Shown here in pieces: positions 4,037 through 28,665 of a stretch of DNA of 33,710 nt. Location of the stretch: contig JAPSIU010000003.1 of the NCBI GenBank assembly GCA_031178565.1, positions 1-33,710 of the forward strand. The letters are read 5' to 3'. Position numbers and translations under genes: made by a program. The notes below the pieces were generated by a model. The model worked only from the letters and a program-made list of their open reading frames with translations, had not been told where the DNA came from and ran no database searches. The DNA comes from Leucobacter sp. (GTDB lineage: Bacteria; Actinomycetota; Actinomycetes; Actinomycetales; Microbacteriaceae). Position 1 is the stretch's first letter; each line of letters starts with the position of its first letter.

Positions 4037-5496
4037 TGCGGTGGAGCGTGCAGCGTTACGGCACGTGGGAGTGGCTCGACTACGAGATGCCGCTCGTCGT
4101 GCCGGAGGGTCCGGAGTGGGCGCTATCCGCGTACGGGATCGTCCGCGCAACCGTCCCCGCCCCAGCCGCGCGCTATCTCGCCGATGACGGACGGGCGATG
4201 TTCGAGGACTGGGGCACGCTCGTACACCTCGAGATCGACGACCCTGGCCGCGTACGGCGGGAGTGGACGGGCTGGGTGAAAGAGGCTGTGCTCGACTCGA
4301 GCGGCTGGGACCTGTCCCTGGTCGAGTTCCCGGGCTATTTCGCGGGCGTCCCCTACGAGGGCCTCGTCCGCGGCACCGGCACCGACCCGGCCGTGATGAT
4401 CCGGCAGATCGTCGGAGACACCCAGGGCTGGGCGAATAGCTGGTTCGGGTGCACCGTCGTCGGCTCTACGCCGGTCCGGCTGGGCACCACGCTCGACGAC
4501 AAGGTCGCGGCGGCGCGTGCCGTCGTGGACGCCCGGAAGAAGACTCTGGACAGTTTCTCGAAGACGAGGACGGAGCAGACGAAGAGTCTGCAGGATCTCG
4601 ATGCGACGCTCTCCGACGAAGTCGTCGCAGCCCGCTCGCTGCTCGCGCAGGCGCAGGCACAGGTCGCCTCTCTCATCAAGGCGGGGGCTCCGTCTGCGCA
4701 GATCGAGACGGCCCGCCAGACCGTCACCGCCCGCCAGGCCACCTACACGACGGCGCTGTCCGCCTACAACGCGGAAGTCGCCGCTGGTCGTGCCGCGCTC
4801 GCTGCGGCGAAGACCGATCAGGATGCGGCTCGTGTTGCTCACAAGGCGGCCGAGGATGCGTACAAGGCCGCGAAGGACGAGCGGGCGTTGAAGGGTGGCG
4901 CGTACGAGGTGCGTGGTGAGGATCTCACCGACACGTACCGTGCGATCAACGAACTCGCGAGGTCGGCGGGGATCGAGTGGACGACTGAGACCGTCTACAC
5001 GGAGGGCGCACCCGACGTGCGTGTCCGGATCCACTATCCGCGGGCGGGCGGACGCCGGGACGACCTGATCTTCGACACCGGCGTGAACATCGTCTCTGCG
5101 CTCGAGCTCGAGCCCGGCGGCGAGTACGCCAACGCCGCGGTCGGGGTGGGTGCGGGCGAAGGACCGAAGGCGATCCGCCGCAGCCTGAATCTCCGATCCC
5201 AGCGTGCACGCCGCCCCGCCGTGGTCGAGGACAAGACGCTCCGAACGGCCGCGCAGGTCGATGCGGCGATGCGGTACGAGGTCGCGCTCCGTCAGGCTCC
5301 CCCGTACCCGCCGGAGATCGAAGTCATCGACCACCCCAACTGCAGGCTCGGCGCCTGGTCCGTCGGGGATCTGATCACGGTGCAGGGCGCGCTCCGCAAC
5401 GGGCTCACCTACCGGGGGCTGCTCCGTGTCGTGTCCTGGGCCCGGAAGGGCGCTACGCGTGCGGTGCTGCGCCTGCAGCCCGCCGAACCAATCTAA
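4036..5496 (+). CDS. Phage minor tail protein (Gp37-like, tail-associated)
   Basis: 486-aa ORF starting MRWSVQRYGTWEWLDYEMPLVVPEGPEWALSAYG, with a central coiled-coil insertion (residues ~155-285). Confidence 0.6.
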   Translation: MRWSVQRYGTWEWLDYEMPLVVPEGPEWALSAYGIVRATVPAPAARYLADDGRAMFEDWGTLVHLEIDDPGRVRREWTGWVKEAVLDSSGWDLSLVEFPGYFAGVPYEGLVRGTGTDPAVMIRQIVGDTQGWANSWFGCTVVGSTPVRLGTTLDDKVAAARAVVDARKKTLDSFSKTRTEQTKSLQDLDATLSDEVVAARSLLAQAQAQVASLIKAGAPSAQIETARQTVTARQATYTTALSAYNAEVAAGRAALAAAKTDQDAARVAHKAAEDAYKAAKDERALKGGAYEVRGEDLTDTYRAINELARSAGIEWTTETVYTEGAPDVRVRIHYPRAGGRRDDLIFDTGVNIVSALELEPGGEYANAAVGVGAGEGPKAIRRSLNLRSQRARRPAVVEDKTLRTAAQVDAAMRYEVALRQAPPYPPEIEVIDHPNCRLGAWSVGDLITVQGALRNGLTYRGLLRVVSWARKGATRAVLRLQPAEPI

Positions 5497-5509
5497 AAGG
5501 AGACACCTC

Positions 5510-8500: not shown

Positions 8501-9367
8501 GTACGGTTCAGCGCGGAGTCCCCGTCAGCCACACAGTCATGGACACGCCTGTACATTAAGTCCGGTGGCGGGCTGGCTCCGGCGTACTTCTGTGTCGATG
8601 ACCTCGCCGTGAGCTCGACCGATATTGACAACCGCAAGCTGTCGATCCTCCGAGACGAGAGCGGCGGCCCGCAGGTGTACGGGAACAGTGGCGAGTGGCA
8701 CCGCTTCAAGCTGTACGTCGGGGAACCCCCCGGCGGCAGCCGCGGCGGATCCCTTGCGGTGTGGAACAACGAAGGCACCGTGGTCACCGGATACTCCGGC
8801 ACAGGCGTCAACATGTCCGACAGTGTCGGAGAACGCCTGACGATCACCAACGGTGGCATGAGATGGCCGAAACCGTCGACGTTCAACACGGAGATCCAGT
8901 CGAACTCCGCGACCGGGTTCCTCATCGAATCCATGAACGCGAGCGCTCCACTCACCCTGAAATCCACAGGGAACGACATCGCGCTCTCAGCCAACGCGGT
9001 CACCTCGGATCGCGCGCTGAAGGTCCTCTGGTCTGGCGAGATCTTCATGAATGGCAGTCAGGTCGCCCCGCTGTCGGATCTGGTGACGAACCAGCTCTCC
9101 GGCATCGTGCTCGTCTGGTCCCGATACCCCACCGGTGGGCCCGCGGCGAACGATTCGTGGACGGAGTGCTTCGTACCGAAGCACCACGTCACGATGAACG
9201 TCACCGGCGGATCTCGCGGCATCTATATGACGGGCACGACCGGGTTCACCAGTGGCGGCGACTGGAAGAAATACATCTACATTTCCAACGATCAGATCAC
9301 CGGGAATGCGTCCAACTCGGTCGCCCCGAACACCAACGTCGTGCTCCGTTACGTGCTCGGTGTCTGA
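5510..9367 (+). CDS. Large minor tail / fibre-like protein with duplicated carbohydrate-binding-like modules
   Basis: ATG at 5510 preceded by AAAAGGAGACACCTC (good SD); the track's start at 5426 overlaps the upstream gene and is rejected. Product begins MARDPMERIAREVVSTKKRLDALARS. Confidence 0.75.
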   Translation: MARDPMERIAREVVSTKKRLDALARSRQLPATSVTLDDGEEQDLTNVLIRGADAWAGVGAIDEHLTDIGDIADDSAVGSTFLPDQVAAAAGSADAGYDTGIVAWERAQEAKAEIESTRVELEGRLTDLDLDLVAAEGRLAEAQARADAAFGAAESRGLPVVQDTAPAGVEIRRNVVLAPRGTAARAGNWASMTARSTELTGGPEYCPQWGKGVVSAATSSSLTYWTAGTGLGGTPVVGGQTYELGMSVYSSRATDNRIAIYQYRADGSLISADSTIFPLLPISAGEWIRREATWTAPADCAHVLLEVHLVAPSGGWAAGDIIGYTASAVSSGTGGYFDGGYAPGRTYSTAWTGPANASVSVLSEWEVPPSQILWIDTSGGANTPMRWDGTSWVEITDKTAKDAAADAAVAHETASSAQGAADTAKAAADAAAVAALEAADLAAGGGAVLVQDTAPTVTEVRRNYIKGSSPLSGNMIANFASTSRSVVTDPLGIYGQVIQVVTTGTAGGITQNVATGSNMGAAEMPAGAGTFTALFRAPAGALMRVGVQEYSPTITPRGENFLPWAAATGNWQEVTLPYTVTAADSRTRIAVQAQNPVTFWVGGVSGETGATPGGIILPGYPSPDPLLTPAWTGPANASPSVLLRGPVRLDRILWIDTTSGANTPKRWNGSIWTEVTDKAAKDAATAAASAASAAATAQSKADAAHTLAGTAQSNAQSALTMAGTKGKVYYSTSAPAGEATAQGDLWRQIDDTSKDVLAEWYWTGTAWQSSKITTTAIANLDVGKLVVGTGIISDLVAQHIAGRTASFQTVDVNNIFVTGQAVIQEAVIEALWAQVVKARFLIATEQIITKDVIAEGTISASKLASDVFQGNTFIGNTFVGGTVSGSFFELSGYGNNVLRLSDPMTSVTPWTATDGATRALDSLMFRSSPTSMRITRGTSTSPTAGAYRNITVPAGKGAEAVFWVYSPTAMTVSANFWNVQFPNRATETYVPAGAWTEVRFSAESPSATQSWTRLYIKSGGGLAPAYFCVDDLAVSSTDIDNRKLSILRDESGGPQVYGNSGEWHRFKLYVGEPPGGSRGGSLAVWNNEGTVVTGYSGTGVNMSDSVGERLTITNGGMRWPKPSTFNTEIQSNSATGFLIESMNASAPLTLKSTGNDIALSANAVTSDRALKVLWSGEIFMNGSQVAPLSDLVTNQLSGIVLVWSRYPTGGPAANDSWTECFVPKHHVTMNVTGGSRGIYMTGTTGFTSGGDWKKYIYISNDQITGNASNSVAPNTNVVLRYVLGV
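5987..7560 (+). repeat. Two diverged ~210-250-aa modules within the fibre-like protein
   Basis: Unit A: VVQDTAPAGVEIRRN...ILWIDTSGGANTPMRWDGTSWVEITDKTAKDAA. Unit B: VLVQDTAPTVTEVRRN...ILWIDTTSGANTPKRWNGSIWTEVTDKAAKDAA. Each is followed by an Ala-rich coiled-coil linker. Confidence 0.8.
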
Positions 9368-9382
9368 CAGGAAGGAGCCGCG

Positions 9383-9724
9383 TTGTCGTACCTGGCCCAA
9401 TCGAAGTTGACCGAGGATCATCATCTCGTCTCCCGCGTCGCCGCGTGTGCGGCAACCCGCGGGATCCGTGACGCTCGCCCGTGGGCGGCGCAGCACATGT
9501 GGCTGCTGTCCGCCCAGCCCGGGTGGGCGGCAGCGTACGCAGACGCGACCGCAGCCGATCCACCCGTGGACCCGGCCGACTGGGTCCCGCATGCCGGCGC
9601 GGATCCGAACGTTATCACTGACGGGATGATCCTCACCGGCGTCGAAGCAGTGATCGCACAGACGGCACCGCCGGCACCGCCTGACCCGCCTGCCGTCCCC
9701 GTACCCACTGAGAGCCCCGCCTAA
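9383..9724 (+). CDS. Small phage protein, 113 aa, unknown function
   Basis: TTG start preceded by AGGAAGGAGCCGCG; lies between fibre-like gene and endolysin; Pro-rich C-terminus. Confidence 0.6.
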   Translation: MSYLAQSKLTEDHHLVSRVAACAATRGIRDARPWAAQHMWLLSAQPGWAAAYADATAADPPVDPADWVPHAGADPNVITDGMILTGVEAVIAQTAPPAPPDPPAVPVPTESPA

Positions 9725-9738
9725 ACCGCGGGGCTCTC
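9710..9738 (+). terminator. Perfect 11-bp hairpin overlapping a stop codon (terminator-like or attenuator)
   Basis: GAGAGCCCCGC-CTAAACC-GCGGGGCTCTC; no U-tract follows, so terminator function is uncertain. Confidence 0.5.
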
Positions 9739-9756
9739 CTCACTTGAGGAGACTTC

Positions 9757-10449
9757 ATGGCGATTTACTACCCGTTCGACCTGTCCCTCGTCTCCGAGTG
9801 GCCAGGCACCCGGCCCGCCGGCTGGGCTCCGCACTGGGGCACCGACTTCGCCGTGCCCTCCGGTACGTCCGTCCCCGCGACGGGCACCGGCACGATCGTG
9901 CGCGTTGGCGACGACGGCCTCGGCGGCTTCACCATCGACCTCGTGGACGACTCCGGCCTACTGCACCGCTTCGGTCACCTCACCTGGCGGTCCGCGCGCG
10001 TCAGCGTCGGGCAGCGCGTCGCCGCCGGCCAGGTCATCGCGCTCTCGGGGAACTCTGGGGCCTCCCTCGGCCCACACCTCCACTGGGAGCTGCGCTGGGA
10101 CCGTCTCTGGTCCTGGGGCGCATGGGTCGACCCCCGCTCGCTCAATCCCCGGCGGCTCGGCAGCTCCGCGCCGACCCCTATCAAGCAGACCGGCGACTGC
10201 GGGTGCGCACGTCGCCGCATCAGGAAAGGACAGAAGGAAATGCATCTCATCTTCCTCACCAAGGGAGCCCGCCAGGACGGGTCCCCCGCGTACGCCATCT
10301 ACGAGCCCGGCCAGCAGGGGTCGTGGGAGGAGTTCGACAACACCACCGCGAAGGGCAAATACGCCAATGCACTGGCGGCGCAGTTCGGTACGCCGATGGA
10401 GGTGAGCCTCAAGAAGTGGCTCGACCTGCAGAAGAAGTACAAGGCATGA
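9757..10449 (+). CDS. Endolysin, M23-family metallopeptidase with separate C-terminal domain
   Basis: M23 hallmarks: HWGTDFAVPSGTSVPATGTGTIVRVG, HRFGHLTW, VGQRVAAGQVIALSGNSGASLGPHLHWELR; adjacent to holin-like genes. Confidence 0.88.
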   Translation: MAIYYPFDLSLVSEWPGTRPAGWAPHWGTDFAVPSGTSVPATGTGTIVRVGDDGLGGFTIDLVDDSGLLHRFGHLTWRSARVSVGQRVAAGQVIALSGNSGASLGPHLHWELRWDRLWSWGAWVDPRSLNPRRLGSSAPTPIKQTGDCGCARRRIRKGQKEMHLIFLTKGARQDGSPAYAIYEPGQQGSWEEFDNTTAKGKYANALAAQFGTPMEVSLKKWLDLQKKYKA

Positions 10450-12917: not shown

Positions 12918-13601
12918 CTACGTCATCCACAACCCGTACTCGACCTTGACGGAGACCTGGTGCGCGACGTACTCGCACCTGAAGGACCCGTTCGGAGGCA
13001 GCCAGGACGCGGCGTCCCCGTCGCCCTTTCGGTTGTTCGTCGGACCGTCGACCGCGAAGAGGTTGAGCGGGTCGTTGGCGAGGGCGATCCGCTCATCCCG
13101 CGTCAGCGCCTGGGCGCCCTTCTGCCAGGCGTCCGAGAGTGCGACGACGTGATCGATCTGCACCGCCTCGGAGGTGCCCTGACCGCGCACGAACTCGATG
13201 CGCTTCCCGGTGTAGGGGTCGACGAGCACCCCGGAGAGCACCTTGCACGGCCCCGAGAGCACGACCCCCGCGAGGTCGCGCTGCAGCACATCGTTGCGGG
13301 CGTCGCAGCCGTTGCGATCCGGATCCTTCCACCCGCTCCCGAACCGCTCGTCCCGGTCGTAGCCCGTCTTGGGCGCGCGTCCCTTCACGGGGATCGCGTC
13401 GAGCAGGGCGAGCGCCGTACGGGACGCGTCCGGTGCCTTCGAGGGGGCCGGAGCGGGATCCGGAGCGGACTCGGGATCCGCGCTCCCCGGCACGGGCTCG
13501 GGAGGCGCTTCCAGCACCCGCCCCGCGGCCTGCGTCCCGACGAAGACCAGAGCGATCAGCAGAGCGATCAGAATCCAGGGCTTCTTCTTCAGTTCGCTCA
13601 T
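12918..13601 (-). CDS. HNH-family endonuclease (DUF1524 / GmrSD C-terminal-like), N-terminal TM or signal anchor
   Basis: MSELKKKPWILIALLIALVFVGTQAAG leader; IDHVVALSDAWQKGAQALTRDERIALANDPLNLFAVDGPTNNRKGDGDAASWLPP is the typical core. Confidence 0.85.
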   Translation of the reverse strand: MSELKKKPWILIALLIALVFVGTQAAGRVLEAPPEPVPGSADPESAPDPAPAPSKAPDASRTALALLDAIPVKGRAPKTGYDRDERFGSGWKDPDRNGCDARNDVLQRDLAGVVLSGPCKVLSGVLVDPYTGKRIEFVRGQGTSEAVQIDHVVALSDAWQKGAQALTRDERIALANDPLNLFAVDGPTNNRKGDGDAASWLPPNGSFRCEYVAHQVSVKVEYGLWMT

Positions 13602-14542
13602 CCCGTCGCGAACCGGCGCCGGTAGGAGGTGGGTGTCGTCGAGTACCGCCGCACGAAATTCTGCCGGAAGGTGACCGCGCTCGCGAAGCCGCACGTGCGA
13701 GCGATGCGTTCGATGCTCCAGTCGGTGCCCTCGAGGAGGCGGCACGTCTCGTCGAGACGGCGCGCGAGCACCCACCGGGCCGGGCTGGTTCCCATGACCT
13801 CCCGGAACAGGCGGGAGAAATTGCGGGGGCTCATCCGCGCGTGATCCGCGAGCTCCTCCAGGGACAGTCCCAGGTCGAGATTCTCGAGCGCCCAGGTGAC
13901 GGTCTCGCCGATCGGACCGGTCGTGCGGACGGGAAGCGGACGCTCGATGAACTGCGCCTGGCCGCCCTCCCGGTGCGGGGCGACGACGAGGCTACGGGCG
14001 ATCGCCGTCGCCGCGGCCGAGCCGAGCCGCCGCCGCACCACGTGCAGGCACGCGTCGAGCCCGGATGCGGTGCCGGCCGAGGTGAGCACGTCGCCGTGAT
14101 CGACGTAGATCGCGTCGGCCTGCACGTCCACAGCCGGGTACCGCTCCTCGAGTCCGGCGGCCGCGGCCCAGTGGGTCGTCGCGGATCGCCCGTCGAGGAT
14201 CCCGCTCGCGGCCACCGGGAACACACCGAGGCAGAGCCCGATGATCTCGGCTCCCCGGGCGTGGGCGGTACGGATCAGCTCCACAGTCTCCGGCGACGGC
14301 TCGGAGAGTTCGGTGCTCCACGACGGGAAGACCAGGATCGAGGCCTCCGCGGCGGCCTCGGGCCCCGCGATGCCGCCCATCTCGATGCCGTCCGAGGATC
14401 GCACCGGCCCGCCGTCGCTGCTCCAGACGACGGTGCTCCAGTCCTCGGCGAGCCCCTGCCGACCCACCTCTCCGAAGGTGAGCAGCGGAATGGCGAGGTG
14501 GAAGGCGGTGATTCCGTCGAACGCGTGCACCGCGACTCTCAT
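13598..14542 (-). CDS. GlxA-like transcriptional regulator (DJ-1/PfpI N-domain + AraC HTH C-domain)
   Basis: N-terminal DJ-1-like GLCLGVFPVAASG; C-terminal AraC: SLEELADHARMSPRNFSRLFREVMGTSPARWVLARRLDETCRLLEGTDWSIERIARTCGFASAVTFRQNFVRRYSTTPTSYRRRF. Confidence 0.9.
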   Translation of the reverse strand: MRVAVHAFDGITAFHLAIPLLTFGEVGRQGLAEDWSTVVWSSDGGPVRSSDGIEMGGIAGPEAAAEASILVFPSWSTELSEPSPETVELIRTAHARGAEIIGLCLGVFPVAASGILDGRSATTHWAAAAGLEERYPAVDVQADAIYVDHGDVLTSAGTASGLDACLHVVRRRLGSAAATAIARSLVVAPHREGGQAQFIERPLPVRTTGPIGETVTWALENLDLGLSLEELADHARMSPRNFSRLFREVMGTSPARWVLARRLDETCRLLEGTDWSIERIARTCGFASAVTFRQNFVRRYSTTPTSYRRRFATG

Positions 14543-18202: not shown

Positions 18203-18219
18203 TTTTGAATAACTCAAAA
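18203..18219. promoter_or_regulatory. Candidate Fur-family operator upstream of the fur-katA pair
   Basis: TTTTGA-ATAAC-TCAAAA, perfect 6-bp arms in an AT-rich island, 21 bp upstream of the Fur start codon. Confidence 0.6.
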
Positions 18220-18744
18220 TAATTGTCCCGGCGAGTCCGACGGCGATCGGTCGCGGAGCGGGATCCGGACCCAGGCGAGGAGCAGCACGAACGCGAGCAC
18301 CGCAAGCACAGCGCCGAGGCCGGCCGGCGTGCGCAGCGCCAGCGCGAGACAGCCGAGCCAGGGCAGCGTCACGACGTGCAGCCCGGCCTCCCGCACGAGG
18401 TACGGCACCGGGTCGTCGGTATCGTTGGCGTCGCCCCGCAGCACGAGGGAGGCGAGTCCCCCATCGAGCGGATCGACCGACACGACGCGATGCGTGACGA
18501 GGCCGTGCCCGTCCCCGCGAGGGACGGTGACGACCGCGCCGGGCTCGATCCCCGACGCATCAACGGTTCGGCTGAGGATCAGCGAGCCGATCGGCAGCTC
18601 GGGCTCCATCGATCCCGAGACGACGACCGCGGGCCGCAGCCCGAGCACCATCGACGCGGCGAAGGCCAGGATGCTGAGCGCGCCGATCACCGCCGCACCC
18701 CACAGCAGCGCGGATCGCAGAATGCGCAGAGCGGTCATGGTCAT
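18214..18744 (-). CDS. Signal peptidase I, SipW/ER-type (Ser/His)
   Basis: VVVSGSMEPELPIGSLILSR (catalytic Ser) and GHGLVTHRVVSV (His in place of Lys); N- and C-terminal TMs. Confidence 0.88.
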   Translation of the reverse strand: MTMTALRILRSALLWGAAVIGALSILAFAASMVLGLRPAVVVSGSMEPELPIGSLILSRTVDASGIEPGAVVTVPRGDGHGLVTHRVVSVDPLDGGLASLVLRGDANDTDDPVPYLVREAGLHVVTLPWLGCLALALRTPAGLGAVLAVLAFVLLLAWVRIPLRDRSPSDSPGQLF

Positions 18745-18840
18745 ACGGGTCGTCTCCTCGGGTCGGGCGGATGCGTCGGGAATGTACGGGCTCGGGGATC
18801 CGGATCGGGGATCCCCTTCGGGTCGGATGGATCGGGCGGC

Positions 18841-20517
18841 TCATCGCAGCACCTGCACGGTCCCAGCGGCGGAGTCGCTCACGGGGGCGCCGAACGGCGT
18901 CTCCGGAGCGGCTTCGTCGTAGCGGTAGATCTTGTATCCCTGCAGGGCCTTCGCCGGCACGACGCACTGGTTGAAGGCGTAGCCCGCGACGGTGCCCGCG
19001 CCCCACGCCCACATCGAACCGTCGGCGGAGCGCGCCCAGGAAGCGCACTGCGTCGACGCGATGGAGGTGACGGGGCGCTCTCCCGGCAGGCCCGCGACGG
19101 GGACGGGGAGATCCACCCGATTGACCGCCGTGGGTCCGCCGGCGGACGAGCAGCCGCCCGCGACGATCCGTCCCCAGTTCGTCGGCGCGCCGACCGCCTG
19201 GCAGGCGTTGTTGGCGCCCCAGCCGTACGCGATGCCGTCGCCGGAGAGCGCGAGCAGCGAGCTCACGCCGGCGGTGACGCGGTCGATCGAGAGGGACCCG
19301 GCGACGGGCGCGGGTCTGCCCGCGGGCTCCGACGCGCTCGGAGTACGGCCGAGGAACTGCTCCCCGTAACCGGCCTTCGTCAACCAGGTGAGGAGTTCTC
19401 CCCCGCTCGTGAGCAGCCGCGCGGCCCCGGCGCTGAACCCCAGCTGGCGCACCGGGCAGCCCGAGTCGTCCACGAGCGCGCTGCCCTTCGATCCGTCGCA
19501 GGCCGGCAGCACCCGTTCGCGCGTGTGCTCGACGATCGCGAGGTAGCGCTCGTGCCGCTGCGTATCGTCCGGCAGCCGGGCCTCGTCGTAGACGAGCCCG
19601 TCCGCGGTGGTGTAGCTCTCGGGATAGCGCTGGAACAGCGCGCGATTCGCCCCCTCGTTGAGCGCCGGGCAGCGGGCGTTCACGGTGACGCCGCTCAGGC
19701 CGTCGGTGGTGTCGAAGCCCCAGGTGTAGACGAGCCCGTTGCGGCCGACGGCTCCCGCGGAGTTCGTGCCGCCCCAGATCGACCGCCAGGCGACCTCACC
19801 GAGGTTCGATGGGCCCGTGCACGGCCAGGCCGACGGGACGGCCGTCGTCGCGCGCACCGCGAAGGGCAGTGCCGCGCTCGCGGCGCCCGCCGGATTCGGC
19901 AGGTTCTCGCCTCCGTAGCCCCAGGCCCACATCACCCCATCGCCGTCGAGCGCCAGGAACTGGTTCTCGATGCGGGCGATGGAGGCGATCGGCGGCAGCT
20001 CGCCGCCCCCGTCGGTCCGGATCACACGCCCCGCGTGCGCGCTGTCCGCTCGCGAGATGCCGCCTCGGCCGATGAGCTTCTCGCCACCGTACGGCCGCCC
20101 CCAGGTCCACACCCCGCCGCCGGCGTCGAGCGCCATGAACGATGTCGTGTCCGCCCACGGCGCATGGAAGTCGTTGGTCGATCCCGCGGCGTCGACGATG
20201 CGCACGCCGTCGGGGAAGGCGACGCGCGTGGGCTCCGCCGTCGGGGCGACCGAGAGGCTGCCGTTGCCGTCGCCCGTCCCCCGGTAGCCCGAGACGTACA
20301 GATCTCCGCGCGCGGAGACGAAGACCGAGGAGGCCGCCGACTGGTCGACGTTCACCGGCGGGGACTCGAGCCCCGACGAGGTGACGAGGGATGCCCGGCC
20401 GAACGTCGAGTCGGTGAAGCCCGCCGCTGTCGTCTCGGCGCCCGCGAGCCCGATGACCGCGATGAGCGTCGCCGCCGCGAGTGTCTTCTTCGTGGCTCTC
20501 ATGCGTATGGCGCTCAT
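18841..20517 (-). CDS. RCC1-repeat-like exported protein with SipW-like signal
   Basis: N-terminus KKTLAAATLIAVIGLAGAETTAAGFTDSTF; repeated GGGVWTWG, DGVMWAWGYG, NGLVYTWGF, DGIAYGWGANN, DGSMWAWGAG motifs. Confidence 0.75.
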   Translation of the reverse strand: MSAIRMRATKKTLAAATLIAVIGLAGAETTAAGFTDSTFGRASLVTSSGLESPPVNVDQSAASSVFVSARGDLYVSGYRGTGDGNGSLSVAPTAEPTRVAFPDGVRIVDAAGSTNDFHAPWADTTSFMALDAGGGVWTWGRPYGGEKLIGRGGISRADSAHAGRVIRTDGGGELPPIASIARIENQFLALDGDGVMWAWGYGGENLPNPAGAASAALPFAVRATTAVPSAWPCTGPSNLGEVAWRSIWGGTNSAGAVGRNGLVYTWGFDTTDGLSGVTVNARCPALNEGANRALFQRYPESYTTADGLVYDEARLPDDTQRHERYLAIVEHTRERVLPACDGSKGSALVDDSGCPVRQLGFSAGAARLLTSGGELLTWLTKAGYGEQFLGRTPSASEPAGRPAPVAGSLSIDRVTAGVSSLLALSGDGIAYGWGANNACQAVGAPTNWGRIVAGGCSSAGGPTAVNRVDLPVPVAGLPGERPVTSIASTQCASWARSADGSMWAWGAGTVAGYAFNQCVVPAKALQGYKIYRYDEAAPETPFGAPVSDSAAGTVQVLR

Positions 20518-21773
20518 GCCTGCGATCTCCCTTCGAGGTGGACGGCGACGGTCCAGTCCGCGCCCGTCATCGCGCGGAGCGCGGGGTCGTCCGCGAGCTG
20601 CAGCGTCAGGAGGTACGTGCGGCAGGATCCGGCCCCGCCGGTGTACGCCTCGCCGGGCGACTGCGCCGCGCCCTCGCGAGGCGCGAGCACCGTTCCCACG
20701 ACGCTCTCCGTCAGTTCGCTCAGCGGCACGCCCGCCCCCGGGTCGGCGGGGTCGCCGACGAGCACCCGCTCACCGGCGGGATCCTCCGCTCCGCCGCAGT
20801 GCTCGCTCTCGACCACTGTGAGGCGCAGCAGCCGTTCCAGGTGGTCGATCCCGCCCTCGGGAACCTCCAGGCGCAACGCCGGAACCGCCGAGACCGCCGC
20901 GCTGTTGTTCGCGAGCGCGAGCTGAATCCGGATCGCGGATCCCGGGACGATCCCCTTCGCGGGGGTGAAGCGCACGGTCTCGCCCGGGCGCGTGGCGACC
21001 CGCCGGATCGTGCCCCGGTCGTCGAGCATCGCCACTTCGAAGTCGGCGGCGAGATCCGATCGGAGTCGCACGCGATCGGTGTAGGCCGCCTGGACCTGGA
21101 CGGCGACCAGAGCGGCGATCGCGATCACCGCGACCGCCGCCGCGGCCGCGAACAGCCCGGCCCTCGTCCACCGGGCGCCTCTCCGCCGAATGAGCAGCGA
21201 ACCGCCCAGGCCGGCCGCGGCGAGCGCCACCGCCGCAAGCCACCCGGTCTGCTCGCCGCCCGTCATCGCCAGGCCGCCGTCGAAGGAGGCGGAGCCCCCG
21301 TCCTGCACCGCCGCGAAGCGGAAGTGCAGCGTCGCGTCCGATCCGCGGTACTCGTCTCCGGCCGCCGCCGGCAGCGCTGCGATCGCCCGGACGGCGTTCG
21401 AGCGACTGTCCCCGGACGACGGCACGGCCACGACCCGGCCGCGGAGCTCCGCGGCCGTCCCCGACGCGAGCTCCAGCGGAAACGCTCCGGCCGCGTCGTC
21501 GCCCTGCCCATCGAGCAGTTCGAGGCGCAGGCTCAGCGGATGACCGCCCTCGGTCGCCCGACCCTCGGCCTCGAGCAGCACGAGCGAGACTCGGCCCGGA
21601 TCCTCATCGGGAGCGCGCACGCGCATGATCCACTCGACGCTGCGCCCCGGAGCCGGGGTCTGGATCGTCGTGACCTCGCCCTCCGTCTCGAGCCGGGGCT
21701 CCGCGTGCGCGGCGGTCCCGCCCCACATCAGCGACAGCAGCGCGAGGAGCGTCGCGATCGGCCTCATTCCCAT
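20514..21773 (-). CDS. Apparent fusion of a sortase-signal protein and a SipW-signal exported protein
   Basis: Sec leader MRPIATLLALLSLMWGGTAAHA; internal LAMTGGEQTGWLAAVALAAAGLGGSLLIRRRGARW; second TM followed by VQAAYTDRVRLRSD. Alternative start at 21767. Confidence 0.65.
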   Translation of the reverse strand: MGMRPIATLLALLSLMWGGTAAHAEPRLETEGEVTTIQTPAPGRSVEWIMRVRAPDEDPGRVSLVLLEAEGRATEGGHPLSLRLELLDGQGDDAAGAFPLELASGTAAELRGRVVAVPSSGDSRSNAVRAIAALPAAAGDEYRGSDATLHFRFAAVQDGGSASFDGGLAMTGGEQTGWLAAVALAAAGLGGSLLIRRRGARWTRAGLFAAAAAVAVIAIAALVAVQVQAAYTDRVRLRSDLAADFEVAMLDDRGTIRRVATRPGETVRFTPAKGIVPGSAIRIQLALANNSAAVSAVPALRLEVPEGGIDHLERLLRLTVVESEHCGGAEDPAGERVLVGDPADPGAGVPLSELTESVVGTVLAPREGAAQSPGEAYTGGAGSCRTYLLTLQLADDPALRAMTGADWTVAVHLEGRSQA

Positions 21774-22474
21774 ACTCCTTCCAGAAGGATCGGTTGGTCT
21801 CCGGCCACCGTCTCGCCGATCACCTGCAGCACGAGCCCGAGAGGACGGCCGAAACTCGCGGCGGGGGCGTCGGAGGCGAGCCACAGACCGACCGAGACCA
21901 CCGCCTGCTCACCGGCTCCGAGGGCCGTCCCAAGATCGAGGCCCTCGGGATGATCCGCGAACCAGGAGCCGCGGATCGGCGCGTCGCCGATCGCATCGCC
22001 CCCGATCGTCGCTCCGACGAGCAGGGCGGCGGGATCGGCGCCTCCGGTCGCCTCCGCCTCGTCCTCCGCGGCGCGGACGACGAGGCGGAGGGCCGCGGGG
22101 CCCTCGGACAGATTGACGACGGGCATCGCGACCGTCGCCGTCGGCCGCTGCGGCCACCCCGCGGGGTCCTCCTCGAGCACGCGGACGGGCAGACCGTTCG
22201 AGGTCAGCTCGCTCGCGTCGTCGATCTCCGGATGCTGCACGACGGCTGGGTCGCCATCGCCGTCGGGTTCCCCGAACTGCGCGACGTCGACCGCGCCTCC
22301 CGCGGAGACCTCCCCCGCGAAGCCCGCGGTGAATAGGGCGTCGGTCGCGGGAACCGACGCCGCTACGACGAGAAGTGCGACGGCGGCGCACACACCCGCG
22401 ATGCCTCGGCGCCATGCCTGCGGACATGGTCGCGACGGCGGATGTCGCCGCGGCGGCGCGCATCCCGCGCTCAC
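21764..22474 (-). CDS. Putative SipW-dependent exported protein
   Basis: N-terminus GIAGVCAAVALLVVAASVPATDALFTAGFAG; operon with dedicated signal peptidase; overlaps next gene. Confidence 0.65.
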   Translation of the reverse strand: MSAGCAPPRRHPPSRPCPQAWRRGIAGVCAAVALLVVAASVPATDALFTAGFAGEVSAGGAVDVAQFGEPDGDGDPAVVQHPEIDDASELTSNGLPVRVLEEDPAGWPQRPTATVAMPVVNLSEGPAALRLVVRAAEDEAEATGGADPAALLVGATIGGDAIGDAPIRGSWFADHPEGLDLGTALGAGEQAVVSVGLWLASDAPAASFGRPLGLVLQVIGETVAGDQPILLEGVWE

Positions 22475-23085
22475 CGGGAGATCCCGTCCACGCGGAGGCG
22501 CACGACGGACCCCGGGGAACCGGACGCCCCGAGGAGCTGCGCGGGTTCATCGGAGAGGACCCGCAGCCCGAAGTTGCGTACTTCACCGGGTTCGAGAGGG
22601 CTCCCCGCGCAGGCCCGCCGGCTGCCCTCCTCGGGAAGCGTCAGCAGCGCCCCGTCCCTCCCCGAGAGCACTGCGCGCGGGGGGGCCGCGGAGTCCGACG
22701 GCTGCCGGTCCTGCTCGAGCGTGAAACACAGCGCAGCCGGGAGGGTCGGACTCGTGTTGCGAACCGCTATCGCGTAGCTGCGATCGCCGCCGCCATCCGC
22801 GTCGGAGCCGGCCAGGCCGACTTCGAGGGCCTCCGGGTTGGCCTCGGACCACTCCGGCGGGGCCGGCGTCCACTCCGGGATCGACGTGCTCTCCACCGTC
22901 CCCGCCTCCTCTCTCGCTGCGATCTGGATATCGAACTCGTGATCCGCCCCCGCGCGCATCTGCGCGACGACATCGATCGCGATGACGCTGAGCGCCGCGG
23001 TGGACAGCACCGCGGCCGCGAGCAGCGCTCCGAGGCTCGCGCCTGCCCTCATGCGGCGACCCGCGACCGCGCTGCCGGCCCGCAT
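22471..23085 (-). CDS. Putative SipW-dependent exported protein (paralogous to 23089-23802 product)
   Basis: ALLAAAVLSTAALSVIAIDVVAQMRAGADHEFDIQI ... PPEWSEANPEALEVG; ATGA junction with downstream gene. Confidence 0.65.
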   Translation of the reverse strand: MRAGSAVAGRRMRAGASLGALLAAAVLSTAALSVIAIDVVAQMRAGADHEFDIQIAAREEAGTVESTSIPEWTPAPPEWSEANPEALEVGLAGSDADGGGDRSYAIAVRNTSPTLPAALCFTLEQDRQPSDSAAPPRAVLSGRDGALLTLPEEGSRRACAGSPLEPGEVRNFGLRVLSDEPAQLLGASGSPGSVVRLRVDGISR

Positions 23086-23088
23086 CGG

Positions 23089-23802
23089 CTACTTGCTCGT
23101 GCCGTCGAGACGTGCCTCGACCCGGACGCCGCCGCCGTTCGCGGCGTTGGTGGAGGCCTGGTCCTCGCCGTTCGCGAGGGAGACGCGCAGCACGAGCACC
23201 CGTCCGGCCCCGCTCGTCAGGTCGCCGAGGTCGACCGTCGCCGTCGATCCGCGGGCGGCGAACGCCCCGGCGGGAATCGGCCGCAGGTCGGCGGGAACGG
23301 TCGTCGCGTCGTCCACCATCCCGTAGTCGAAGCGCAGGAGCGCCGCGTAGGCGGCGTCCGCCGGGGCGTCGCCGTCGGTGACGTTGTTCAGCGTGAGCGC
23401 CAGCGTCGAGTCCAGGTTCTTGGACGCGTTGCGCACCGGCACCTTGACGATGAGCGGGTCTCCCCCGGGGATCAGGGCGTCAGCACCCGGGATGGGCAGC
23501 GCCTCCGCATCCGGGTTCGCCTCCACCCACCGCCCGACCTCGCCGACGCTGTTCTCCTGACCGGTCGAGACCTGGATGTTGTACGCGTTGTCCGCCCCGC
23601 CGAATCCTCCGCCCGCGCCGAGGTCCAGCAGCGCGTAGTCGGTGAAGGCCGCTGCGGTCACGAGCGCGCCGGCCGTGAGGAGCGCGCCGACGGCGATGAT
23701 CGCACGGCGCTTGCCGCGACGCCTCGTGTCCCCCGATCCTGCCGCTCCCTCGATCCCGCGCGTGCCGCTCGTCGCTTCGTCGCGCTGCGTCTGGTCGATC
23801 AT
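23089..23802 (-). CDS. SipW-dependent-type exported protein (first gene of the surface operon)
   Basis: AIIAVGALLTAGALVTAAAFTDYALLDL ... DNAYNIQVSTGQENSVGEVGRWVEANPDAEAL. Confidence 0.75.
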   Translation of the reverse strand: MIDQTQRDEATSGTRGIEGAAGSGDTRRRGKRRAIIAVGALLTAGALVTAAAFTDYALLDLGAGGGFGGADNAYNIQVSTGQENSVGEVGRWVEANPDAEALPIPGADALIPGGDPLIVKVPVRNASKNLDSTLALTLNNVTDGDAPADAAYAALLRFDYGMVDDATTVPADLRPIPAGAFAARGSTATVDLGDLTSGAGRVLVLRVSLANGEDQASTNAANGGGVRVEARLDGTSK

Positions 23803-23881: not shown

Positions 23882-23971
23882 GCGCGGGTGAACGACTGAG
23901 TATGCGGCCGGGGTCCGGTGAGGGCGCCTCTAGGTGGCCGCGGGGAGAAGTTGAGTAGGGGTGCGCAGAGT

Positions 23972-26497
23972 CTAGAGTCGCGAGTCGATGAGCTCGAAGA
24001 GCTCGGTCCGTGTGCGCGACCCGGTCTTGCGCAGCGCCGACGCGAGGTGGTTCTCGACCGTGCGCACGCTCAGGCCGAGACGTTCCGCGATCCGGCGATT
24101 CGTGAGAGCGCCCGCGAGCAGCGCGATCTCCCGCTCGCGAGGGGTGAGGGTGTCTCCGGTCGTCGGCGGCGTCGGGGCCTGCTCGGAGACCTCGTTCACG
24201 GGAAGGTACCGATTGCTGAACGCGACATCCGCGAGGTGCTCGAGATCGTCGGCGCGACGCTCATCGACGCGGCCGGCCCCGTCCCCCGCTCCGGCCCCGG
24301 CGCCGAGACGCTCGTAACGCGCGGCCGAGCGCAGGAGGGATCTCAGCAGGCCGTCGTGCTGGCCGGTCCCGAGCCGGTCGAGGGTGCCGGCCAGATGCTC
24401 GATGCTCGCCGAGCGGTCGAGCCCGAGCGTGAGCTCCTCGGCCGCTGCGAACGCGGGGATCGGTCTCCTCCGCTGCACCGCCCGGAAGGCCGCCGAGGTC
24501 TCGGGCCCGTATCGCAGCGTGAGCGACGCGAGTGCGGTGTGAGCCGCGCCGGTGACATATCCCAGCTCGTACCTCCGCTGCACGGCATCGGCGACCGTCC
24601 GATCCTGGGCTTCGCCCGTCGTCGGGTAGTCCGTGAACGCCTGGAAGGAGTCGGACCCCATCCCGAGGAAGGGTCCGGCCTGGGGCAGGAGCATGGCCGA
24701 CTCGCTGAGGAAGGAGTCCTTCGCCGCGGACTGCCCGGAGAACACCGCGATGAGCCCCTGCATGTTCAAACAGGCCGTGTAGACGGAGGTGTATTCGAGC
24801 TGGGGCCGCCCGACGAGCACGGCCGCGTCCACGCACTGCTGCACGGCCCGGTACTCCCCCAGATAACTCTGCGCGAGCACCGCCACGTAGGCCGACGAGG
24901 CGAACAGGGTCCGGTCGAGCGTGCCCTCCGCCTCCTGCATGGCTGCGGCAGCACGGCGCAGCGATGCGACGGCGTCGCCCTCGAAGAGCGGGAGCAGCTG
25001 CCTCGCCCACCCGACCGAGCGCCGCGCATCGGAGCCTGCGCGCGCGGCGAGGTCGGCGGCCTCGGCGATTCTCCCGCCCGCCATGAGCGCCATCAGTGCG
25101 GCGGCCTCCCGGACCCCCGCGGGATCCTCGCCCGGAGCGAGCAGATCGTCGAGGTCCTCGGGAACCCCCTGCCCGTTCATCAGCTCCAGGAGAGCGTGAA
25201 CCGACCGTGCGGAGTCGTGCCAGAGCGGGTGCAGGGCGCCGAAGCGGCCGATCATGTCGCAGGCCCGGTCCAGGTCGTGCTCCTGCATCGCCACCCAGGT
25301 CGCCCGGGCGAACGCGAACAGGAAGGCCGACGGGTCCGGTCGGCCGCGCCCCTCCGGTGTGGTCGTCAGCACCCGGTGCAGCTCCTGCTGCTGCGCCGGG
25401 GCTCCCGAGGCGACGGCGTAGTAGTCGAGCGCGTTGGGAATCGTGGGCTCCCGGTTCCACCGCGCGAGGGCCGCCGCGGCATCGCGTGCGGCGCGATCGA
25501 CGAACCGGCGGGCGAGAGTCGTGAGCTTGTCGGGATCGCCGCACCAGTCGGGAACGCCCTCCGGGGAGGGCCCCGAGACCGGCAGGCGGGCGCGGCCTCG
25601 ACGGAACCGATCGACGAGGATCGGCGGCCACGCGATCAGCGCCGGAGCGCCGGAGGCACCGCTCGCCCGCACTGCTCCGAGCTCCCGGGCGCGCTCGATG
25701 GTCTCCGGTCCGTACCTCTCCGTCAGGTCGTCCTCGCCGCGCGCTCCCTCCACCGCCAGGAACCGGATCAGCGATCGCACCTCGTCGCCGACGTCCGAGA
25801 AGAGCTCGTCGACGACCGGGATCATGTCCTCGTTCCACAGCGAGTCGCCCGTCTGCTGCCAGGTCCCGGCTCGCAGTTCGAGGAGCGCTCTCTCGCGTGC
25901 GCTCTGCAGCAGCGCCGTGATCAGCTTCGGCGAACCGCCGGTCTTGCTGAACGCCCTCGTCACCGCCGAGGGCGCGAGCCGGCCTCCGAGCACGTCGCGG
26001 GCGAGCGCGCTGGTCCTCGCGAGATCGAGCGGCCGCAGAGGGACGACCCGCTCGGGCCAGCGGACGGGGAAGCCGCTCCGCCGATCGGCGCCCGTCACCT
26101 CGGTGATGAGCGCGCGCAGTCCGAGTCGCTCGCGAAGGGTCGCGAGCGCTCGGACGGATACCGGGTCCATGCGGTGGGAGTCGTCGATCAGCAGGATCGC
26201 CTCCGGCGACAGGCGCTGCGCGACCTCGTCGATGACGAGATCGAGGCGCAGCAGAAGGTCTCCGACCCGCTGCGCTGCGCCGAGCTCGGAGGCCAGCCGA
26301 CCGAGGACGTAGCCCGCGCTGTCCGCGGCGGCGTACTCGCCGATGCAGTGGAGCACGGTCTCGCCGGTCTTCCGCAGCGAGTCGGCGACATCTCGGACGA
26401 AGCGCGACCGGCCGCTGCCGCGATCGCCGACGACCCGGACGCTCCATCCGGCGCGGAGGGCGGTGCGGGATATCCCGATCTCATTCCCGAAGACCAT
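23972..26497 (-). CDS. LAL-type LuxR-family regulator (AAA ATPase N-domain, LuxR HTH C-terminus)
   Basis: P-loop-like GDRGSGRS, Walker B EAILLIDD; C-terminal LTPREREIALLAGALTNRRIAERLGLSVRTVENHLASALRKTGSRTRTEL. Confidence 0.92.
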   Translation of the reverse strand: MVFGNEIGISRTALRAGWSVRVVGDRGSGRSRFVRDVADSLRKTGETVLHCIGEYAAADSAGYVLGRLASELGAAQRVGDLLLRLDLVIDEVAQRLSPEAILLIDDSHRMDPVSVRALATLRERLGLRALITEVTGADRRSGFPVRWPERVVPLRPLDLARTSALARDVLGGRLAPSAVTRAFSKTGGSPKLITALLQSARERALLELRAGTWQQTGDSLWNEDMIPVVDELFSDVGDEVRSLIRFLAVEGARGEDDLTERYGPETIERARELGAVRASGASGAPALIAWPPILVDRFRRGRARLPVSGPSPEGVPDWCGDPDKLTTLARRFVDRAARDAAAALARWNREPTIPNALDYYAVASGAPAQQQELHRVLTTTPEGRGRPDPSAFLFAFARATWVAMQEHDLDRACDMIGRFGALHPLWHDSARSVHALLELMNGQGVPEDLDDLLAPGEDPAGVREAAALMALMAGGRIAEAADLAARAGSDARRSVGWARQLLPLFEGDAVASLRRAAAAMQEAEGTLDRTLFASSAYVAVLAQSYLGEYRAVQQCVDAAVLVGRPQLEYTSVYTACLNMQGLIAVFSGQSAAKDSFLSESAMLLPQAGPFLGMGSDSFQAFTDYPTTGEAQDRTVADAVQRRYELGYVTGAAHTALASLTLRYGPETSAAFRAVQRRRPIPAFAAAEELTLGLDRSASIEHLAGTLDRLGTGQHDGLLRSLLRSAARYERLGAGAGAGDGAGRVDERRADDLEHLADVAFSNRYLPVNEVSEQAPTPPTTGDTLTPREREIALLAGALTNRRIAERLGLSVRTVENHLASALRKTGSRTRTELFELIDSRL

Positions 26498-27211: not shown

Positions 27212-28405
27212 TCAGCCCAGCTCGTCGCGGCGGAAGCGCAGTTCCCGCTCGGCCCCCCGGAGCGGGGAGCCCTCGAAACCGACTGCGGAGAGGTCGACGC
27301 CCATCGCAGCGGGGAGGGCTCGCCGCTGCAGACTCCTGGCCGCCCGCTCGGGGAGGCCCAAAGCCTCCCCGAAGCGGTCCCAGTGCGTCCGGCGCAGTCC
27401 GCGCTGCTTGCCGTCGACGCTCAGCGCGATGGTGCGGTCGCCGTAGACCAGGGTGCAGGGCACGTCGTAGATCGGTGCGATGACCGCGCCGAGACCGGGA
27501 TCGGCGATCACCGCGATGTTCTTCGCGTGGAGGTCGCCGTTTCCGGTGAGCCACGCGAAGAGGAGCTGCAGATAGAGGTTCCGAGCTGCGACCAGAGGCG
27601 CCTCCGTCAGATTCATGAGAGCGGTGCACGCGTCTTCGCCGGCGATGCGGTACTTGTCGGCGGGCGGGATGTCCGCCGCTTGGGCGGCGTCCTCCTGCGC
27701 GAGGCGCACCCACCCGTTCGCGTTGCGCATCCGATCGAAGCGACGGACGAGCAGTGCGGGCGCTCCGTGCCGGTCCATGATGATCCGGCTGCGCGCGACC
27801 GGGATCTTGAGCGCTCTGGCCGCGATCAGGTGGGCGTGCTCGTTCTCGAGCAGGAGCGGATACTCGCTCGACCCGAACTTCACGAGGTACGATCCGCGGT
27901 CGCTCGCGAGCGGCGCGGTGCGCATGTTGCCGCTGACCTTGTTCTGCACTCCCGGGAGCGCGTGCAGGTCGAGCTGCTCGGCGAGGCGCCCGAAGTCGAG
28001 TCTCTCCCAGTCGCTCTCCTCGACGCGCGCCCGCGGTTCGAGAAGCGGCTCCCCGTGCGGTACCAGCTGCACGTCTCCGGGAGTATCTGCGCCGACCGCG
28101 AGGAGGAGTGAGAACTCATCGCTCAGGGATGTCTTCACGGCGCGCTGCAGGTTCACGAGGCGCTGCCCTTCGGGGAGCAGGCCTGCGAAGAAGTTCGGCA
28201 CGGACCCGCCCCGGGTGAGCACGGGCTCGGCGCGGAGCGGCAGGCTGCTCGCCACGGCGGGGGCGCCCGATTCGAGATAGGCAGCCAGGTAGGCGAAGGA
28301 AATGCCGCCCCCGGACTCCCTCGTCAGAGTGCCCGCCGGCCGGCCGGACTTGTACACGTCGGCCCGCTCGACGGACGTGATCCGATCGAACTCGGGGCCG
28401 GTCAC
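27212..28405 (-). CDS. hipA: HipA-family serine/threonine kinase toxin
   Basis: GTG start overlapping hipB stop; ALPGVQNKVSGNM, YLVKFGSSEYPLLLENEHAHLIAA, LLVRRFDR, WLTGNGDLHAKNIAVI. Confidence 0.9.
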   Translation of the reverse strand: MTGPEFDRITSVERADVYKSGRPAGTLTRESGGGISFAYLAAYLESGAPAVASSLPLRAEPVLTRGGSVPNFFAGLLPEGQRLVNLQRAVKTSLSDEFSLLLAVGADTPGDVQLVPHGEPLLEPRARVEESDWERLDFGRLAEQLDLHALPGVQNKVSGNMRTAPLASDRGSYLVKFGSSEYPLLLENEHAHLIAARALKIPVARSRIIMDRHGAPALLVRRFDRMRNANGWVRLAQEDAAQAADIPPADKYRIAGEDACTALMNLTEAPLVAARNLYLQLLFAWLTGNGDLHAKNIAVIADPGLGAVIAPIYDVPCTLVYGDRTIALSVDGKQRGLRRTHWDRFGEALGLPERAARSLQRRALPAAMGVDLSAVGFEGSPLRGAERELRFRRDELG

Positions 28406-28665
28406 GATCCGTCGCCTCGCTGAGACGCCTGGACCGCGGGGAGCGAGAAGTCGCCCGCCGCGGTCAGGCGCAGCCCGAGTGCTGCGCATGCCCTCTCGAC
28501 CGACCCGATGCTCGGAGATGCCGCTCCCCGTTCGATGTCCCGCAGGGTCCGCTCGCTCATTTCTGCGAGCTCCGCGAGATCCGCCTGCGTGAGTCCGAGA
28601 GCCGAGCGGCGCTCCCGGATGCCCTCGCCCAGCAGGCGCAGATGCTCATCGACCACGTCCATCAC
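28402..28665 (-). CDS. hipB: HipB-like XRE-family antitoxin
   Basis: RRSALGLTQADLAELAEMSERTLRDIERGAASPSIGSVERACAALGLRL; 4-bp overlap with hipA. Confidence 0.88.
   Translation of the reverse strand: MMDVVDEHLRLLGEGIRERRSALGLTQADLAELAEMSERTLRDIERGAASPSIGSVERACAALGLRLTAAGDFSLPAVQASQRGDGS

Follow-up and report, generated by a model that had tools for sequence, protein, structure and literature searches.

What does a gene cluster with its own SipW-type signal peptidase build at the surface of an actinobacterium? Fibres of the TasA type are known from Bacillota and archaea, but the picture of how they begin, how they end and what holds them to the wall is still coarse. In a stretch of 33,710 nucleotides from a Leucobacter sp. 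(hereafter the window), a first reading of the sequence alone described a self-contained SipW-type surface-protein operon with a dedicated peptidase and five candidate substrates. We consider that this operon, known here from its genes, somewhat more probably than otherwise encodes a wall-anchored SipW-type fibre held together by donor-strand exchange, with TasA-like working and dedicated ends. The two interface elements known from TasA appear to be divided within one conserved cassette, one lying in a candidate tip and the other in a candidate anchor, and the order of assembly may therefore be readable from the sequence. The protein families concerned are without names in current Pfam and NCBIfam models, and the cassette provides them with a proposed function and a candidate regulator site.

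Layout of the operon

Six minus-strand open reading frames (ORFs), running from 23802 to 18214, encode g1, g2, g3, g4, an RCC1-like propeller (g5) and an ER/SipW-type peptidase (g6) (Table 1). The ORFs and three overlaps described in the sequence-only reading are present, and two of the overlaps are ATGA (21767/21764 and 20517/20514); the third (22474/22471) reads GTGA rather than ATGA, and at the remaining two junctions the genes lie 3 bp and 96 bp apart. The host assembly comprises 542 contigs, with 8% contamination.

Table 1. Coordinates of the operon components and of the adjacent regulatory features in the window. A slash marks the predicted cleavage site or signal end.
Feature	Position	Strand	Description
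g1	23802-23089	-	Candidate major shaft subunit; SipW-type N-terminus TAA/AFTDYALLDL; proline box PGGDPLIVKVPVRN; ORF
g2	23085-22471	-	Paralogous shaft subunit; predicted cleavage after STAA; hhalign to g1
g3	22474-21764	-	Paralogous subunit; signal end ATDA/LFTAGF; proline box weak or absent
g4 as one ORF	21767-20514	-	417 codons open in contig
g4N (g4 N-half)	21767-21168	-	Ordinary Sec signal, beta-sandwich, LAMTG sortase-type motif (21272-21258), membrane helix, RRR tail
g4C (g4 C-half)	21170-20514	-	SipW-type substrate VQA/AYTDRV; g1 paralogue; own gene in relatives
g4N/g4C junction GTGGA	21171-21167	-	One base fewer gives a GTGA stop/start overlap
g5	20517-18841	-	RCC1-like beta-propeller; SipW-type N-terminus TTAA/GFTDSTF; proposed tip/adhesin (donor only)
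g6	18744-18214	-	ER/SipW-type signal peptidase; SGSMEP (Ser), LVTHRV (His); two membrane segments
LuxR-family large ATPase (STAND/LAL-like) regulator	23972-26497	-	GerE and AAA domains
Candidate operator	23956-23897	-	ACTCA 23956-23952, CCTCA 23923-23919, ACTCA 23901-23897

The peptidase and its candidate substrates

The last gene had been taken for an ER/SipW-type peptidase from its SGSMEP and LVTHRVV motifs, and g6 indeed scores 61.8 bits against TIGR02228 (cut-off 51.85), the NCBIfam model for archaeal/ER-type signal peptidases (S26B). Its translation shows both catalytic boxes, the histidine replacing a lysine, and activity is predicted from the sequence. Against the Bacillus SipW equivalog NF046067, g6 reaches 47.1 bits, under the cut-off of 190 bits. 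It is the sole TIGR02228-type peptidase match found in this Leucobacter genome, which, together with the retained synteny described below, bears out the view of a self-contained SipW-type export cassette.

The motifs that follow the hydrophobic segment are not a matter of chance. The segment is followed by AAAFTD in g1, AYTD in g4C and GFTD in g5, and a [FYM]xD-type motif stands directly after it in 26 of 28 homologues of g1, 18 of 27 of g3, 17 of 28 of g4C, 18 of 29 of the RCC1 protein and 10 of 28 of g2, but in none of the 28 homologues of g4N; the donor-motif pattern used in these counts, like the proline-box pattern used below, was picked after the sequences had been viewed. The claim that all substrates share such a segment and motif holds for g1, g4C and g5 but not for g2 in the form proposed: by g1-g2 profile alignment, the site equivalent to the g1 cleavage region is TAAL/SVIAID, not AQMRAGADHEF, and the N-terminus of g2 in the window is non-canonical. 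Across 18 homologues of g1, seven of residues 50-59 are invariant or nearly so. The SipW-cognate signal peptide domain TIGR04088 (cut-off 19 bits) has no match among the window proteins, and gives weak matches (best E 0.04) in 3 of the 18 g1 homologues. The count of five candidate substrates overlooked that g4N is a sortase-type wall-anchor protein and not a SipW-type substrate.

Paralogous subunits and their possible relation to TasA

The small subunits had been called paralogous, and profile comparison agrees. In hhalign, g2 matches g1 at 99.9% across 190 columns (99.8% once the first 45 residues are removed), g3 at 99.8% (mature-only 99.2%) and g4C at 99.9% (mature-only 99.4%), such that g1, g2, g3 and g4C are paralogous without the signal region too (98-99.8%). 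g4N is related to g2 (97.6%) and g1 (91.6%), and the propeller has only N-terminal stretches of 13-19 columns in common with the other operon proteins. The AlphaFold model of g1 is a beta-sandwich whose core has pLDDT above 90, with residues 18-67 below 50, that is, a disordered mature N-terminus.

No known TasA sequence family was detected: the TasA/camelysin model PF12389 has no match in the window proteins or the whole genome, the g1 profile matches TasA at 0.8% in hhalign, and a PDB sequence search with g1 gave no match. Filament folds are among the Foldseek matches (350,542 PDB chains). For g1, the Pyrobaculum bundling pilin 7ueg ranks 4 (E 8e-4) and the TasA fibre 8aur ranks 7 (E 1.6e-3, probability 1.00, TM 0.39, the top query TM among the listed matches); for the g4N anchor domain, the Pyrodictium cannula protein CanA (9hdi) ranks 1. 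The fold matches have low TM-scores (0.28-0.41), for which disorder in the signal and donor regions is part of the reason, and a beta-sandwich resembles many other structures; a tie of the subunits to TasA-like donor-strand filaments is partly supported by these modelled folds.

In TasA, residues 28-38 form the donor strand, of which F29 and I32 are buried in the subunits that follow (PMC9674648), and the proline box is the most conserved part of the interface, contacting A28/F29 (PMC10151520). At the sequence level, g1 has both elements: its start is A-F-x-D-aromatic, as in TasA, and is conserved in its homologues, and the proline box occurs in all 25 g1 homologues, as it does in 27 of 27 of g4N and 25 of 26 of g4C. 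In the propellers the box is not above expectation (7 of 27, with 9.8 expected from shuffling), and in g3 it is not clear (10 of 26). The elements of the TasA interface thus appear to be distributed among genes, with A-F-x-D but no box in the propeller, the box but no A-F-x-D start in g4N, and both in most shaft subunits.

These patterns bear on an alternative in which the operon exports separate surface or matrix proteins in a SipW-dependent way and no polymer results, the paralogues forming a wall complex or coat around the propeller and the signals serving only to route proteins to the peptidase. The substrates do have signal type and peptidase in common, the structural matches have modest TM-scores, and the system is known from genes, with no filament observed. 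Yet a pure sorting signal would have no need of a conserved block that reaches the mature N-terminus, as that of g1 does; the donor motif and the proline box fall to different components, as the ends of a fibre would need; and three different filament proteins are among the top fold matches. We therefore regard a non-polymerising cassette as unlikely and continue with the fibre.

The candidate wall-anchor half of g4

g4 passes the sortase-anchor model TIGR01167, which describes an LPXTG-like motif with a hydrophobic segment and a basic tail (17.4 bits; cut-off 15.9), at residues 166-196. The anchor is internal in the window, while C-terminal in relatives, because g4N and g4C are fused. Two sortases are encoded in this genome. 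In the three closest relatives (L026, L036 and L037) the halves are separate ORFs, and removal of one G from the GTGGA junction restores a GTGA stop/start overlap, where L036 reads CGTGACGAGC. The fusion appears to hang on one base and is seen only in this genome, and the earlier listing of a fusion protein within an unusual substrate set is better replaced by a one-base event. A genuine fusion with a new role, for instance as a bifunctional link between base and shaft, could account for the long ORF, which runs open through the contig and keeps both membrane segments and both signals; it is rather improbable, since the relatives that were examined have two separate genes, one G distinguishes the junction from a GTGA overlap, and the assembly is in the state given above. 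Under the fibre model, g4N and g4C would be read as one protein here through a one-base change or error, and a sortase and g6 would still cut the fused g4 into the same two products.

The propeller and possible tip exchange

An RCC1-like propeller had been noted among the substrates, and g5 matches PF25390 (72.1 bits, E 6.7e-20, under the Pfam cut-off of 150) and PF13540 (E 0.0015); its positional homologue in L028 passes the RCC1-like propeller Pfam cut-off with 163 bits. The substrate set is not as unusual as had been supposed, the propeller being a regular cassette member in many genera. In variant cassettes, propellers are joined or replaced by ricin-B lectin proteins with SipW-like signals (L035, L062 and L064) or by an unrelated 480-aa protein, also with a SipW-like signal (L061). 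In some variants, the lectin is fused to a g1-like part, which is a misfit with a strict donor-only tip rule.

RCC1-like folds serve many functions, and the role of the propeller as tip is a proposal from gene content. RCC1-like propellers, among them BLIP-II-like ones, occur in secreted bacterial inhibitors, and no other large component of window-type cassettes is as well conserved as g5 (58-66% identical in L026, L036 and L037), but a secreted inhibitor or bacteriocin-like system, with the propeller as effector and the small proteins as carriers or chaperones, is very improbable, since every complete cassette has a sortase anchor and paralogous subunits that indicate a surface structure, the propeller is exchanged as binding tips would be, and no immunity-like gene was seen.

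Distribution and genomic context

The same arrangement, g1-g2-g3-{anchor, propeller, g4C}-peptidase, is found again in other Leucobacter, Brevibacterium MAGs, Microbacterium, Arthrobacter, Sanguibacter, Propionicicella and Arenivirga, and synteny of all seven components extends over at least seven genera. The refuting outcome set by the sequence-only reading, unrelated families together with no conserved synteny, did not come about: sequence families went undetected, yet the gene order is strongly conserved. The nearest relatives of g1 are in Brevibacterium MAGs (62-64%). The window is not a misbinned Brevibacterium contig: the flanking SelO gene has full-length counterparts, 57-69% identical to it, across many Leucobacter, and the complete Leucobacter genome G011 has the same LuxR-linked operon. 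The cassette tree mixes genera, and transfer between genera is therefore likely; a plasmid search gave no matches, and plasmid-borne spread was set aside. So was membership of fur and katA in the system, the downstream neighbour in G011 being an unrelated hydrolase. In a search of the open-access literature, we found neither an actinobacterial SipW/TasA cassette nor RCC1 in SipW operons.

Candidate regulation

The LuxR/STAND regulator adjoins several cassettes; in L026 and L036, the cassette has a homologue of it, at 51% identity, as its neighbour. The candidate operator repeats are phased by 33 and 22 bp, and phased ACTCA repeats stand upstream of many LuxR-linked cassettes. Judging from this arrangement, the adjacent regulator, acting on the repeats, probably sets the expression of the operon. 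Palindromes upstream of g1 are not conserved in relatives, and a promoter/terminator scan gave nothing useful.

A model of assembly

In the proposed fibre, Sec would export g1, g2, g3, g4C and g5, and g6 would cut them at A/[AG][FY]xD, freeing an N-terminal strand. By comparison with TasA and from the conserved motifs, the shaft subunits g1, g2, g4C and probably g3 would be incomplete beta-sandwiches, each with a groove into which the subunit before it inserts its N-terminal strand. The propeller has a donor strand and no sandwich, and therefore could only start a chain; it would be the tip, and probably an adhesin. g4N, with a sandwich and proline box, no free donor strand and an LAxTG anchor, could only end the chain as an acceptor, and would fix the fibre to the wall via a sortase whose gene lies at another place in the genome. 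The fuller claim of a complete Actinomycetota donor-strand pilus, in which SipW-type cleavage activates the donor strands, the donor-only propeller or lectin tip is exchangeable, the shaft is a heteropolymer of four paralogues, the acceptor-only end is sortase-anchored, and LuxR/STAND and phased ACTCA repeats exert control, is put forward tentatively, as possible but not quite probable.

Comparison with known systems

By design, the Leucobacter operon looks like a little-studied actinobacterial relative of the Bacillus TasA biofilm fibre. The tapA-sipW-tasA operon of B. subtilis likewise has a dedicated SipW-type peptidase, and TasA resembles g1 in its mature start (A-F-N-D in TasA, A-F-T-D predicted in g1) and in its proline box, which in g1 belongs to a predicted beta-sandwich, the TasA fibre being in the top structural matches. 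It has one subunit and TapA, whereas the Leucobacter operon has four paralogous subunits, a sortase-type anchor and a propeller, belongs to Actinomycetota, has another regulator and shows no detectable sequence homology.

In B. cereus, sipW-tasA/calY/capP has SipW-processed paralogous subunits, as in the Leucobacter operon, and these were shown to form heterofilaments; unlike that operon, the system is described as sortase-independent and uses the chaperone-like CapP, with no propeller described in the available part of the report (PMC13082335). The C. perfringens sipW-bsaABCRSD operon likewise unites SipW, several secreted proteins and its own regulators, and when sipW is deleted, BsaA is no longer secreted and no pellicle forms; the regulator is a two-component system rather than LuxR/STAND, BsaA polymerisation was judged sortase-independent, and no propeller is described in the available part of that report (PMC7395162). 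The Pyrobaculum pilin, one of the better fold matches for g1, and CanA, the top match for g4N, are archaeal and without sortase anchor, and no sequence similarity to the operon proteins was detected. The resemblance of TasA to chaperone-usher pili has been noted (PMC9674648). Type 1 and P pili are Gram-negative and depend on usher and chaperone, and no homology with the Leucobacter operon is claimed; as an analogy only, their tip adhesin, shaft and cell-end subunit are joined by donor strands, as in our model. A complete donor-strand pilus of Actinomycetota, if true, would parallel the logic of chaperone-usher pili on the Gram-positive side.

The operon, its peptidase and its anchor

The operon consists of six minus-strand genes (g1 to g6 in transcription order), the last of which, as the sequence-only reading had claimed, encodes an ER/SipW-type signal peptidase: it matches TIGR02228 above cut-off, carries SGSMEP and LVTHRV boxes, and is the only match to that model in this genome. 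The same reading had the genes joined mostly by ATGA overlaps, which holds for two junctions; one other is GTGA, and gaps of 3 and 96 bp separate the genes at the remaining two. Neither Pfam nor NCBIfam models match g1, g2 or g3 above cut-off; g5 encodes an RCC1-like propeller, by a match (E 6.7e-20) that falls short of the Pfam cut-off for that model. g4 contains an LPXTG-type anchor, and homologues of its N-half (g4N) end in an LAxTG or LPxTG-like motif followed by a hydrophobic stretch and then basic residues. Class E sortases typically recognise LAxTG; the genome has two sortases, both away from the operon. A gene for a LuxR-family ATPase lies upstream (Table), and fur and a catalase gene downstream. 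The window also holds a prophage-like tail module (tape measure, three minor tail proteins, an M23 endopeptidase and a 1313-aa tail-fibre-like protein bearing a carbohydrate-binding domain), and the genes of a HipA-type kinase and a protein with a GmrSD C-terminal domain.

The halves of g4 are separate genes in a complete Leucobacter genome (G011, locus L026) and in the Brevibacterium MAGs L036 and L037. The window's junction reads CCCGGTGGACGAGG, and that of L036 CGTGACGAGC. With one G fewer, the window sequence would form a GTGA stop/start overlap (products RRGAR-stop and (M)TRAGLFAAA); a single base thus accounts for the fusion, whether it is genuine or stems from misassembly. In the genuine case too, a sortase acting at LAMTG and the peptidase cutting between AQA and AYTD would regenerate both products.

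Table. Coordinates of features in the window and in compared loci
Feature	Locus	Position	Strand	Remark
Six-gene operon	window	23802-18214	minus
ACTCA, CCTCA, ACTCA repeats	window	23897-23956	minus	spacing 33 + 22 bp
LuxR-family ATPase, 841 aa	window	23972-26497	minus	GerE + AAA domains
Prophage-like tail module	window	67-10449	plus	PHROGs matches
GmrSD restriction endonuclease C-terminal domain protein	window	12918-13775	minus
HipA-type kinase	window	27212-28489	minus	HipA_C + Couple_hipA
Ricin-B lectin protein, SipW-like signal	L035	10460-12049		variant Leucobacter cassette
Ricin-B lectin protein, SipW-like signal	L062	6250-7725		variant Leucobacter cassette
Ricin-B lectin protein, SipW-like signal	L064	4545-6758		variant Leucobacter cassette
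480-aa protein, SipW-like signal SAFQDQAF	L061	11374-12816		after peptidase
LuxR-type ATPase genes	L049	6216-8783; 15235-17805		flanking cassette

Subunits and a proposed fibre

In profile-profile comparison, g1, g2, g3 and the C-half of g4 (g4C) were joined at 98-99.8% probability with the first 45 residues removed, while g4N joined g2 at 97.6% and g1 at 91.6%. These proteins form one superfamily of subunits; the propeller has only 13-19 N-terminal columns in common with them. In the AlphaFold model, g1 has a beta-sandwich core predicted with confidence, and residues 18 to 67, the mature N-terminus included, are disordered. In a Foldseek search of 350,542 PDB chains, its top seven matches include the Pyrobaculum bundling pilin (rank 4) and the TasA fibre (rank 7, probability 1.00, query TM 0.39), and the g4N model (mean pLDDT 83) has CanA of Pyrodictium cannulae at rank 1. 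Because TM-scores are modest and generic beta-sandwiches match too, these results support, rather than prove, a link to TasA-type filaments; by sequence, none of the operon proteins belongs to the TasA/camelysin family.

In TasA fibres, residues 28-38 of one subunit extend into the following one to complete its sandwich, and F29 and I32 are buried (PMC9674648), and a proline box around P62, the most conserved part of the interface, contacts A28/F29 (PMC10151520). TasA in PDB 8aur begins AFND, and the counterpart of this donor segment in g1, TAAAFTDYAL, is the best-conserved stretch of that protein. The donor-type motif and the proline box were both scored with patterns devised after sequence inspection. 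We found the donor-type motif in g1 (26/28), g3 (18/27), g4C (17/28), g2 (10/28) and the propellers (18/29), and in none of 28 g4N. The proline box occurs in g1 (25/25), g2 (23/25), g4C (25/26), g4N (27/27) and g3 (10/26), and in 7 of 27 propellers vs 9.8 expected from shuffles. g3 fits the donor/acceptor pattern poorly. The simplest reading is a polar fibre of peptidase-cleaved, strand-exchanging subunits, in which the propeller, as donor only, would form the tip, g4N, as acceptor only, the wall base, and the remaining subunits the shaft.

Distribution, variants of the proposed tip and a candidate operator

Conservation of gene order, a check proposed from the sequence alone, was borne out by a survey with profiles of eight components. 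Over the 31 loci covered, these profiles reveal the order g1-g2-g3, then g4N, RCC1 and g4C (varying slightly), then SipW, which is present in Leucobacter, Brevibacterium, Microbacterium, Sanguibacter, Arthrobacter, Propionicicella and Arenivirga. One Arthrobacter cassette, L049, is flanked on both sides by LuxR-type ATPase genes. The cassette is accessory: g1 homologues are present in 13/54 Leucobacter genomes, and a 397-genome sample of the phylum holds no g1 homologue outside the window's own genome. The tree of six concatenated proteins intermixes genera, grouping the window with G011 and the two Brevibacterium MAGs, which suggests transfer between lineages. The window contig looks like Leucobacter, and no PLSDB plasmid carries the cassette.

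Three variant cassettes (L035, L062, L064) encode, besides an RCC1 protein, a ricin-B lectin protein with a SipW-like N-terminus. In L061, which has an ECF-type sigma factor gene upstream, a 480-aa protein with no Pfam match takes the place held elsewhere by the propeller. Such exchange would be the behaviour expected of adhesin tips. Since the lectin proteins hold a weakly g1-like part, the donor-only rule for tips may not be universal.

ACTCA, spotted by eye in four loci and then found elsewhere, is the top enriched 5-mer upstream of g1 in the four window-type loci (25.8-fold). Same-strand pairs 20-23 bp apart lie upstream of 8/26 non-redundant cassettes vs 0.36% of background windows, and accompany six of nine cassettes with a LuxR gene in view vs one of 15 without (Fisher p 0.004). 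Repeats are spaced 22 + 32 bp in L037, 22 + 33 in L026 and 21 + 21 in L036, and phased direct repeats at 21-22 or 33 bp, which go with a neighbouring LuxR/STAND gene, also precede g1 in L042, L043, L046, L047, L051 and L059. This spacing would fit a large LuxR-type regulator binding one DNA face, a candidate for control of the proposed fibre.

Relation to known fibres

The analysis establishes the operon, its conserved gene order, the paralogy of the subunits, the identity of the peptidase, the anchor motif, the separation of donor and acceptor motifs and the one-base nature of the fusion; cleavage, strand exchange, fibre polarity, the function of the tip and regulation are inferred. No account of a comparable cassette in Actinomycetota turned up in the open-access literature searched. 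The SipW-dependent TasA/CalY-type fibre is a known kind; the Leucobacter cassette, differing by its own anchor and proposed tip, would extend it as a new variant.
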